33,809 bases of DNA from Actinomycetota bacterium (GTDB lineage: Bacteria > Actinomycetota > Acidimicrobiia > IMCC26256 > JAGPDB01), in assembly GCA_963169585.1 (NCBI GenBank), contig CAUJDU010000047.1, positions 1 through 33,809 of the forward strand, in the 5' to 3' direction. Positions 12,272 to 14,701 of this stretch are shown here, in pieces; position 1 is the first letter of the stretch, and every line of letters begins with the position of its first letter. Both the position numbers and the translations under genes were made by a program. The notes under the pieces were generated by a model. That model saw nothing but the letters and a program-made list of their open reading frames with translations. It was not told the DNA's origin and ran no database searches.

Positions 12272-13102
12272 TTAATCTAGCAGACTCATTATTTGTTCGT
12301 GAACACGAGCGCTTGCACAGCCAAGAATTTCTCCGTTAGTGAGCCAATTTGCCTCATGACCACTAAAATCAGTGACCATACCGCCAGCCTCTCTAACTAG
12401 CAAACCTCCAGCAGCTACATCCCAAGGTTTTAAGAACCTTTCGACAAATGCTGCCCAAGTTCCTTGAGCCACCCACATTAGCTCTAAAGAAGCAGAACCG
12501 ATCCTTCGCATATCTTCAAATTTTGTTAATAATCTTCTGACTAGCTCCATATGCTCGTCTATGTATTCTGGGTATCGGAATGGTACTGATGTGGCAAAAA
12601 TATTAAAATGGTTTCCGGAATCTATCGTTTTGAGCTTTATTGGCGATTGAGAATTAGTTGTATATTTCCATGCTCCTGAACCACGTATCGCATGTACAGT
12701 TTCACCAAAAATGGGCACATCTAAAACTCCAACTTCGAGTTCTCCATCTACACGTAAACCGATAGATACTCCAACAGCACCGAAGGAATGAGAAAAGTTT
12801 GATGTGCCATCTAGTGGGTCGACTATCCAACAGGTATTTGGAACATCAATTTTAATTTGGTTACCAACTAGCTCGAAATTTGTGGATTCTTCACCCATGA
12901 AATATATTGAATCATCAAATTTTGCTAGTTCTTCTTCAATTATCTCTTCACACTGGCCATCCACTTCGGTAACAAAATCTGCATGACCTTTAGCGGTTAC
13001 GTTTAAATCAGTCCCTATCCGTGAACGGATAACCTCACTTGCCTTATTTGCAGCACTGATTGCGGCCTGGCGGGCATGTTCGAGGTCTAAATTACTCGTC
13101 AT
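12272..13102 (-). CDS. Inositol-monophosphatase-family phosphatase
   Basis: Mg2+/Li+-sensitive sugar-phosphate phosphatase fold, 276 aa. Metal-binding motifs are present: GEES (acidic loop), VDPLDGTSNFSHS, and near the C-terminus KPWDVAAGGLLVREAGG. Substrate could be inositol-1-phosphate, histidinol phosphate or another phosphomonoester; the sequence does not decide. The start codon lies 11 bp downstream of the whiB7-like stop, so the two are probably co-transcribed. A second, more divergent family member lies at 13880-14701, on the other side of the whiB7-like gene. Confidence 0.9.
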   Translation of the reverse strand: MTSNLDLEHARQAAISAANKASEVIRSRIGTDLNVTAKGHADFVTEVDGQCEEIIEEELAKFDDSIYFMGEESTNFELVGNQIKIDVPNTCWIVDPLDGTSNFSHSFGAVGVSIGLRVDGELEVGVLDVPIFGETVHAIRGSGAWKYTTNSQSPIKLKTIDSGNHFNIFATSVPFRYPEYIDEHMELVRRLLTKFEDMRRIGSASLELMWVAQGTWAAFVERFLKPWDVAAGGLLVREAGGMVTDFSGHEANWLTNGEILGCASARVHEQIMSLLD

Positions 13103-13113
13103 ACCCGCTGACT

Positions 13114-13500
13114 CTAGGCGATTTGCATGGCAATATCAGGACTGAGACCCTGATTTCCTTGTTCCTCTTTGCTCTTGGCCGATAGCTGTAGTGCTTTGCG
13201 AACTCTGGCATTGTCTAGGCTCTCAGATTTCCTAGGCCTTCCCCTTCCTCTCTTTGTTGCCTGTTCTTCACCGTTCACGAAAATTACTCCACCCCAAACT
13301 CCAGCAAATGGAGGATTAGATCTAGCTTGATCTAAGCAAATAGACCTGACTGTACATCGTGCACATACGAGTTGAGCACTGAGCATATCTTTTGTGCTTT
13401 CAGAAAAGAATAGGTCAGTTTGTCCACTACAAGCTGGCTCTGTGCTTGGTTGTTGTAAATAATCGATTTGTCTTTGTTGTTCTAATAATAATTTATTCAT
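13114..13500 (-). CDS. whiB7: WhiB7/WblC-like iron-sulphur transcription factor with AT-hook
   Basis: Actinobacterial WhiB protein that binds a [4Fe-4S] cluster and the primary sigma factor. Four cysteines are present (ACSG, then CARCTVRSIC, i.e. C-x2-C-x5-C), followed by the GVWGG turn. The segment after the turn, GVWGGVIFVNG then KRGRGRPRK, closely resembles mycobacterial WhiB7, whose RGRPRK AT-hook contacts AT-rich DNA next to the -35 of antibiotic-resistance genes. At 128 aa it is longer than typical WhiB7 because of a basic C-terminal extension and an N-terminal coiled segment. A Shine-Dalgarno AGGGA sits 8 nt before the ATG. An intrinsic terminator with a competing structure lies just upstream (13531-13620), suggesting attenuation. 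The paralogue call rests on motifs read by eye. Confidence 0.85.
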   Translation of the reverse strand: MNKLLLEQQRQIDYLQQPSTEPACSGQTDLFFSESTKDMLSAQLVCARCTVRSICLDQARSNPPFAGVWGGVIFVNGEEQATKRGRGRPRKSESLDNARVRKALQLSAKSKEEQGNQGLSPDIAMQIA

Positions 13501-13530
13501 TTGATGATTCCCTAAAAAGTGTGTATAACG

Positions 13531-13561
13531 AAAAAAACCGCCGGATAAATCCGACGGTTTT
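13531..13561 (-). terminator. Intrinsic terminator/attenuator hairpin 30 nt upstream of the whiB7-like start
   Basis: On the minus strand the arms AAAACCGTCGGA and TCCGGCGGTTTT pair over 12 positions (one G-U wobble) around the loop TTTA and run into seven Ts (13537-13531). The G-U becomes a C-A mismatch on the plus strand, so it is built to work in the minus direction. Its position between a leader reading frame and whiB7 makes it either a simple terminator for that frame or, more likely, a whiB7 attenuator. Confidence 0.85.
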
Positions 13562-13583
13562 GAATTTTGTTTTAGGTATTTTC

Positions 13584-13667
13584 TTAAAAATCCTTCAATC
13601 CAGAATTGTTATCCGTCGGAGGTGTTACCCAAATTCCTGACTTATTAGTGTATGCAAATAGATACAC
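13584..13667 (-). CDS. Putative upstream open reading frame (leader peptide) of whiB7
   Basis: An open frame ends at 13584 (TAA), 22 nt before the attenuator hairpin. The frame is open up to a TTG at 13862 (92 codons), but that TTG falls within a -35-like TTGACG, so the full length is doubtful. Internal in-frame starts are ATG 13826 (79 codons), ATG 13736 (50 codons) and GTG 13667 (27 codons, preceded by GGA at short spacing). The last is given here as the minimal version; it ends in WVTPPTDNNSGLKDF. Its Pro-Pro-Thr-Asp codons contain the anti-terminator segment. Other short frames exist in the leader, for example a leucine-rich one starting after AAAGGG near 13790. Which one is translated cannot be settled from sequence. 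If the long form were a real protein, it would be a small unknown one with an N-terminal hydrophobic segment. Confidence 0.4.
   Translation of the reverse strand: MYLFAYTNKSGIWVTPPTDNNSGLKDF
13613..13620 (-). promoter_or_regulatory. Putative anti-terminator segment in the whiB7 leader
   Basis: The minus strand reads TCCGACGG here, the exact reverse complement of CCGTCGGA (13557-13550), the 5' arm of the terminator. Pairing the two would prevent terminator formation. The segment is translated as Pro-Thr-Asp codons near the end of the upstream reading frame, so ribosome position could choose between the two structures. Confidence 0.55.
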
Positions 13668-13856
13668 TTGTCCGGCTGAGCTATTGCTAATGGTGGGTAC
13701 GAAAAGTAAAGTCACCTGGTCAAACGTAGAAATCATCCACGCGTGAAAAGTGCGCGTTTTTTCGCCAACAGAAGCAGTTGTTGAGACAACAAGCCCTTTG
13801 AGCAATGTAGTTATGATTCCTAACATACATACAAGAAAAGCAGGATATAAGCCGTT

Positions 13857-13862
13857 CGTCAA
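13857..13862 (-). promoter_or_regulatory. Candidate -35 element of the whiB7 leader transcript
   Basis: TTGACG on the minus strand, directly downstream of a strongly AT-rich stretch (about 13863-13900). WhiB7 proteins act with the primary sigma factor at promoters having AT-rich DNA next to the -35, often including their own. No convincing -10 is found 17 bp downstream (it reads TTTTCT), so this stays tentative. Confidence 0.3.
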
Positions 13863-13879
13863 GTTATTAAAAGAAAAAT

Positions 13880-14701
13880 CTAGAAAAAATGTGGAAATAA
13901 TTTCTTAAAATCATCCAAAAGCACTTTAGATCTAGAGACTAGAACCCCAGTTGCAGCTAAAATCCCATTCGAGTCACGTCTTAGAACTTCACATCCAGCC
14001 TGTATTGCAATGTATTCGGCTGCTAAAAGATCCCATGGTTTTAACAGAATATTTTCGTCATCTATATATGCATCAAGTCCACCTCTAGCTACATCACATA
14101 TGGCTAATGCCGTTGAACCAAAATGACGCAGGTGTCTAAAAGGGATGCTTGGTCCTTCGTGCGAATTGAAATATATTAGTGATCCTGAAAAATTATCTGC
14201 ACGATTACCTACTTCATTTCGTTCTATATGAGTTCCGTCTAGTTTTGTCGATTTCCCATCTTTATCAAGTACTTTTACTTCATCTTTTTGGGTAGCTACA
14301 AACTTTCTCTGTGTCACTTGATCTACGACAAGCCCAGCAATAACGCTTCCTCTGTGTACCAATGCAGCAGAAAAACTCCAATATCCTATCTTTCGAGAAG
14401 CATTTGTCGAGCCGTCTATTGGATCGACTACAAGGATGAGTTCATTCGAATCGATTTTTGATTTATCGAGTTCACGTTCTTCGCTAATAATATATCCAGG
14501 AAAATTAGATATGTGATCATGTAATATTTTATCTGCAAGTATATCTATCTCATACTGATTAGAAATACCATCTACTTTCTTTCGCCTATCACCATTATTC
14601 ATAGATTCAACTCGTTCACGAATCTCGTCTGCTACGCCAATGAGCTTTTCTATTAATTCAAGAATTTCTTTTTCTTCGAGAACATTCATTTCTTGACTCA
14701 T
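13880..14701 (-). CDS. Second inositol-monophosphatase/CysQ-like phosphatase
   Basis: 273-aa member of the IMPase superfamily, clearly divergent from the copy at 12272-13102. Metal-site motifs: ISEERELD, VVDPIDGSTNASR and LLKPWDLLAAEYIAIQAGCEV. DPIDGST with the following W-D motif supports an active phosphomonoesterase. The substrate is unknown; inositol phosphate, fructose-1,6-bisphosphate and 3'-phosphoadenosine 5'-phosphate are all handled by relatives. The N-terminus is a predicted helical segment rich in Glu and Lys. It begins 9 bp after the small membrane-anchored gene at 14711-15097, so the two are likely co-transcribed. Confidence 0.87.
   Translation of the reverse strand: MSQEMNVLEEKEILELIEKLIGVADEIRERVESMNNGDRRKKVDGISNQYEIDILADKILHDHISNFPGYIISEERELDKSKIDSNELILVVDPIDGSTNASRKIGYWSFSAALVHRGSVIAGLVVDQVTQRKFVATQKDEVKVLDKDGKSTKLDGTHIERNEVGNRADNFSGSLIYFNSHEGPSIPFRHLRHFGSTALAICDVARGGLDAYIDDENILLKPWDLLAAEYIAIQAGCEVLRRDSNGILAATGVLVSRSKVLLDDFKKLFPHFF

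Follow-up and report, generated by a model that had tools for sequence, protein, structure and literature searches.

The whiB7 leader in the window, a 33,809-nt stretch of an Actinomycetota contig, very probably constitutes a transcription attenuator of the whiB7/wblC type that depends on an upstream reading frame (uORF). Sequence analysis demonstrated the parts of such a switch, their conservation and co-variation, and two predicted folds that are mutually exclusive.

The whiB7-like gene and its genomic setting

The gene at 13114..13500 on the minus strand encodes a WhiB7-like regulator of 128 amino acids with four Cys residues, a GVWGG motif, and the AT-hook KRGRGRPRK. The Pfam Whib and AT_hook models matched at 42.2 and 18.1 bits, respectively, each above its cut-off, and the protein thus combines the features of the WhiB7 type (four Cys, G[VI]WGG, and AT-hook). 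The AT-hook is absent from every other WhiB protein recovered in the source genome, and no NCBIfam model was found for the protein. It diverges from the canonical forms carrying EPWGVWGG and occupies a long branch in the WhiB7 tree. A Shine-Dalgarno-like AGGGA lies at 13509..13513 on the minus strand, and AAAGGA is present at a similar site in the sister genomes. The whiB7 gene is flanked on the same strand by two distinct genes of the inositol-monophosphatase family (12272-13102 and 13880-14701). An inositol phosphatase also adjoins whiB7 in several relatives of the order, and the neighborhood is partly conserved.

The source contig is part of a 1.57-Mb draft genome (G000). The window has a G+C content of 38.7%, in agreement with the AT-rich setting described in an earlier reading of this DNA made from sequence alone (the sequence-only reading). 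That reading also pointed to an unusually long gap in front of whiB7. Between the stop codon of the upstream phosphatase gene (13880, minus strand) and the whiB7 ATG (13500) there are 379 nt, which exceeds the adjacent spacers of 11 and 9 nt, but gaps of 313 and 251 nt also occur nearby. Two ABC-F genes and hflX were examined as possible targets of the regulator, and no WhiB7-type box was found at them.

Promoter and upstream reading frame

The putative promoter of the leader consists of a -35 element (TTGACG, 13857..13862, minus strand) and a weak -10 element (TTTTCT, 13834..13839, minus strand) at a spacing of 17 nt. The same -35 element occurs in the sister genome G002 at a similar distance to the terminator, and TTGAC is present in most relatives of the order. 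Three nucleotides upstream of the -35 element, the AT-rich hexamer TTTAAT (13866..13871, minus strand) is a predicted WhiB7 autoregulation box, based on the order relatives and the published position of the motif. In the published WblC promoter, the motif lies 3 bp upstream of the -35 element, and transcription starts 7-8 bp after the -10 element (PMC7157823). An AT-rich stretch abuts the -35 element in most of about 38 order relatives, including those with GC-rich genomes. The hexamer of the window, in an AT-rich genome, departs from the GAAAWY consensus; many GC-rich relatives match it well. From the spacing of the -10 element and the published distance between this element and the start site (PMC7157823), transcription is predicted to begin at approximately 13827-13826.

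The sequence-only reading had left open which leader peptide is made. It can now be identified as an 80-residue peptide, MLGIITTLLK...SGIWVTPPTDNNSGLKDF, encoded on the minus strand from the ATG at 13826 to 13584 and presumably translated. The assignment is based on homology to the uORF of G002 and on the distance between the ATG and the -10 element. The G002 uORF (81 amino acids) aligns with that of the window from end to end, with a score of 104 compared with -5.7 ± 9.7 for shuffled sequences. The uORF of the distant sister genome, G001 (65 amino acids), shows a weak similarity that is not convincing as homology, and G001 keeps 6 bp of the pairing described below.

The uORF appears to be leaderless. 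Its ATG lies 8 nt after the -10 element in the window and at the same distance from it in G001 and G002, and with transcription starting at the predicted site (13827/13826) the frame would have no 5′ leader. The same seems to apply in all three genomes, in contrast to most order relatives, whose ATG follows the -10 element by some 30-90 nt. We consider the chances about even that the uORF in the three genomes of the genus (G000, G001, and G002) is a leaderless sensor, in which the ATG is base 1 or 2 of the transcript and translation is started by whole 70S ribosomes, as a variant of the whiB7 attenuator. If this is correct, the part of translation initiation that such a uORF senses would not be the one reported by the mycobacterial uORFs, which start from a Shine-Dalgarno sequence.

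Terminator and antiterminator

As the sequence-only reading had noted, a strong intrinsic terminator precedes whiB7. The 11-bp hairpin on the minus strand (13535..13560) consists of AAACCGTCGGA-TTTA-TCCGGCGGTTT, read from 13560 to 13535, has a calculated energy of -15.8 kcal/mol, and is conserved throughout the class. It is followed by a U-tract that ends at 13531, 30 nt ahead of the whiB7 ATG. The uORF stop (13584) is located 23 nt ahead of the first arm of the terminator.

The proposed antiterminator 5′ strand, TCCGACGG (13613..13620, minus strand), is indeed an exact complement of the first arm, forming eight of eight pairs with 13557-13550, so that the first arm (13560-13550) is common to the terminator and the antiterminator. 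The strand was also said to be encoded by the last codons of the frame ending at 13584. The frame does contain it, but at about ten codons before its end. An 8-nt complement arose by chance in 2.2% of dinucleotide shuffles of the whole leader and in 0.24% of those of 70-nt upstream stretches. The match is therefore modest and suggestive by itself and decisive only in combination with the relatives.

The predicted fold of an RNA ending at the first arm is one long hairpin (13550..13620, minus strand; -18.0 kcal/mol compared with -9.0 ± 2.2 kcal/mol for shuffled sequences), in which 13620-13613 pairs with 13557-13550 and the uORF stop codon lies in an apical hairpin. For the complete leader, the terminator state (-27.8 kcal/mol) is favored over the antiterminator state (-25.2 kcal/mol) by 2.6 kcal/mol. 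Since the terminator state is the more stable one in the completed leader, the antiterminator can prevail only if it forms earlier; the choice would be kinetic, and a ribosome could tip it. The equilibrium fold of the whole leader contains the terminator alone, and the switch appears in folds of the nascent RNA. Folding thus yields two mutually exclusive states, and co-variation, the exchange of arms between loci, and RNAalifold (see below) agree with this exclusion. In the window, 26 nt separate the end of the antiterminator strand from the uORF stop. This distance is larger than in most relatives, and a ribosome at the stop codon would therefore not directly cover the strand.

An Rfam search of the leader gave no family at its gathering score (best score of 30.8 bits compared with a gathering score of 60 bits). 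The low-scoring matches were generic terminator hairpins and were rejected.

Co-variation of the arms

The pairing was examined in an alignment of 38 order sequences (A2), which was built without structural information. The helix between the antiterminator and the first arm is paired in 84.0% of the cells, compared with at most 50.0% when the strands are slid by 1-3 columns. Changes on both sides of this helix were found in 23 cells (8.4 in shuffled alignments), and none of 500 shuffles reached the observed covariation score. The terminator is paired in 95.8% of the cells of the order alignment, and RNAalifold recovered the antiterminator helix unaided. The co-varying arms that the sequence-only reading had proposed to look for in relatives are thus present.

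At one diagnostic position, the first arm has C or U, and the second arm always has G (C-G in 19 sequences and U-G in 16). A first-arm C faces G in the antiterminator in 18 sequences, and a first-arm U faces A in 14 and G in 2. The terminator thus accepts U at this position as a wobble, and in the antiterminator its partner is A. This antiterminator base falls in most relatives on the silent third position of an Arg codon (Pro-Arg-Arg), and the frame differs in the window (Pro-Pro-Thr). Between G000 and G002 too, the segment is read in different frames and encodes different residues, and the pairing is retained. Because the RNA still pairs when its reading frame is a different one, what is kept is the pairing and not the peptide.

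The arms of the same locus fit each other better than arms exchanged between loci (mean of -19.74 kcal/mol compared with -16.36 ± 0.24 kcal/mol; none of 5000 permutations). In the nascent fold, at least six bases of the first arm pair with the end of the uORF in 92 of 92 loci, with 41.6 expected, and the mean z-score of the folds is -3.65. For the diagnostic position, parsimony on the WhiB7 tree gave 11 changes of the first-arm base and nine of the antiterminator base, none of which are opposed. On its well-supported branches only three independent pairs occur, all concordant or neutral, a number that is underpowered and not significant.

Conservation of the layout across the class

The WhiB protein served as the query against genomes of the family (three), the order (58), and the class (395), and 113 class whiB7 loci with upstream DNA were taken for a scan of the layout. 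A strong terminator is present at 95 of the 113 loci. At 92 of them it is combined with a uORF whose stop precedes it by 19-38 nt, in most cases by 23-28 nt with a mode of 25 nt, which provides the conserved upstream frame that the sequence-only reading had proposed to look for in relatives. This first scan limited the loops to 8 nt; when longer loops were allowed, approximately ten of the other 18 loci were recovered with the same geometry. The first arm is GCCGYCGG or similar nearly throughout the class. Unusually long terminator loops with unchanged uORF spacing were observed at whiB7 genes of the WGVWGGVIFWDG type, whose proteins are close to that of the window (L042, L044, L045, L054, L058, L066, L086, and L087).

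The uORF peptides drift freely in length and sequence across the class, and the distance from stop to terminator and the pairing are kept. Within the order the peptides are varied, and a Trp residue and a basic C-terminus recur. In many of them (e.g. L017, L022, and L030), the conserved Trp, often as Ser-Trp, lies some 20 codons upstream of the end, and the last codons are rich in Arg.

A covariance model built from A2 was searched in the source genome and 397 genomes of the phylum. It gave one match in the source genome, which is the whiB7 leader (E = 1.7e-7), and all matches in the class that were opened lie at whiB7. Matches outside the class were rejected as background (E of at least 1e-5, none adjoining a WhiB gene).

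In G002, two near-identical short contigs carry whiB7 (C52 and C182; L006 and L008, L127 and L128), which probably reflects redundancy of the assembly and not duplication. Tandem whiB7 copies occur in one family of the class, at L136 (G059 C1, about 680027-681198) and at G079 C1 4345955-4347299. At L136, the RNA model matches only ahead of the second copy.

Proposed mechanism and alternative explanations

In the proposed mechanism, RNA polymerase would start at about 13827 from the promoter with the predicted WhiB7-type box, and ribosomes would load onto the 80-codon uORF at the 5′ end of the transcript. Without stress, a ribosome would trail the polymerase to the uORF stop, where it would sit between the antiterminator strand and the first arm and break the antiterminator hairpin. 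The first arm, 23 nt downstream, would remain free, and the terminator would form and keep whiB7 off; this would be the default when the uORF is fully translated. A ribosome footprint extends approximately 12-15 nt beyond the stop codon, so that a first arm at a distance of 23 nt would stay accessible; this would account for the constancy of the spacing. When a ribosome stalls early in the uORF or none is loaded, the nascent 13620-13613 segment would fold onto 13557-13550 while the second arm is still to be transcribed. This would pre-empt the terminator, and whiB7 would be transcribed and amplify itself. The idea of the sequence-only reading that a ribosome stalled upstream frees the segment to open the gene is supported by the co-variation and the conserved uORF. 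Translation of the uORF, ribosome stalling as the signal, autoregulation, and a response to drugs are what we infer from this arrangement.

The uORF might instead sense amino acids, as in attenuators of the trp/ilv type, and report on one scarce charged tRNA and not on general ribosome inhibition. The logic of terminator and antiterminator would be identical, mycobacterial whiB7 responds to amino-acid starvation as well (PMC11550727), and many uORFs of the class share a conserved Trp codon. However, no run of a single residue that could serve as regulatory codons was found in the 80 codons of the uORF, the peptides differ greatly between families and share only single conserved residues, and WhiB7 controls no single biosynthetic pathway. 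We therefore regard this explanation as unlikely.

It is considerably less likely still that the hairpin is a plain terminator of the upstream inositol-phosphatase unit, with an accidental uORF and a whiB7 promoter further down. The phosphatase gene (13880) has no other obvious terminator after it, and a TATACA-like stretch (~13525) lies between the hairpin and whiB7. This stretch is missing in both sister genomes (G001 and G002), so that a promoter at this place, which would speak against the switch, has no conserved support. Moreover, the upstream neighbors vary among relatives (an inositol phosphatase, or unrelated or divergent genes) and the leader remains with whiB7, which argues against a terminator of the adjacent operon, in which the co-variation between the antiterminator and the first arm would also have no role. 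The least probable of the alternatives is that the frame of 80 codons encodes a small protein in its own right and is cotranscribed with whiB7, with the terminator just setting the expression ratio. Although the peptide is conserved between G000 and G002, its length and sequence change freely in the class at a constant stop-to-terminator distance and pairing, and in these same two genomes the pairing outlasts the change of frame and residues. The evidence as a whole favors the uORF-dependent attenuator.

Comparison with known attenuators

Attenuation of whiB7/wblC mediated by a uORF is described as experimentally established in Streptomyces and mycobacteria in the parts of the literature consulted (PMC11550727, PMC13236596, PMC13393426), which cite Lee, Lee and Roe (2022, Mol Microbiol 117:179) for the wblC attenuator of Streptomyces. 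In the portion of the literature on both whiB7 and Acidimicrobi- that was covered, nothing on attenuation was found. As far as these sources describe it, the Streptomyces system resembles that of the window in its WhiB7/WblC regulator, its uORF, and an intrinsic terminator with a mutually exclusive antiterminator, and its autoregulated promoter has a predicted counterpart in the window. It differs in that the window uORF appears to be leaderless. The sequences differ as well: beyond the class, no whiB7 leader is detected by the covariance model of the order. Of 20 whiB7 leaders from outside the class, including some from Streptomyces-sized genomes, 12 have a terminator. Most of these 12 show a uORF stop 18-28 nt before the terminator, with the pairing partners located roughly 41-61 nt upstream; in the Streptomyces-sized genomes the stop is 23-24 nt before the terminator, the geometry seen in the window. 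This shared geometry places the window leader among the whiB7/wblC attenuators.

Mycobacterium whiB7 is similar in its transcription start about 350 nt upstream, its uORF, the terminator before the gene, and induction by ribosome stalling (PMC4128351, PMC13236596, PMC13393426). The mycobacterial uORF has a Shine-Dalgarno sequence approximately 10 nt upstream (PMC4128351), whereas that of the window, so close to the -10 element, seems to have none. A simple scan of whiB7 leaders in Mycobacterium-sized genomes found no terminator.

In the attenuators of ARE-ABCF genes (vmlR, are5sc, and tiaA), translation of a uORF likewise selects between terminator and antiterminator, but these attenuators control resistance ABC-F genes and have very short uORFs in are5sc and tiaA (PMC9226507, PMC12421871). 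The window has an 80-codon uORF, and its target is a transcription factor. In amino-acid attenuators such as that of ilvB1 of M. tuberculosis, the position of the ribosome on the uORF also selects between the two structures (PMC13236596); these carry regulatory codons for the end product, unlike the uORF of the window.

Because the stop-to-terminator spacing is the same inside and outside the class, the sequence data suggest that the switch is older than the split of these actinobacterial classes. The class-wide alignment, in which the peptide drifts but the RNA pairing and the position of the ribosome stop are retained, defines a concrete RNA element that can be annotated and that has no Rfam match at the gathering score. 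Since the mechanism is established in Streptomyces and Mycobacterium, the present case widens its range and adds no new kind: the ribosome-sensing attenuator of whiB7 is now traced, with co-variation, to a second actinobacterial class and to an AT-rich genome of 1.6 Mb.
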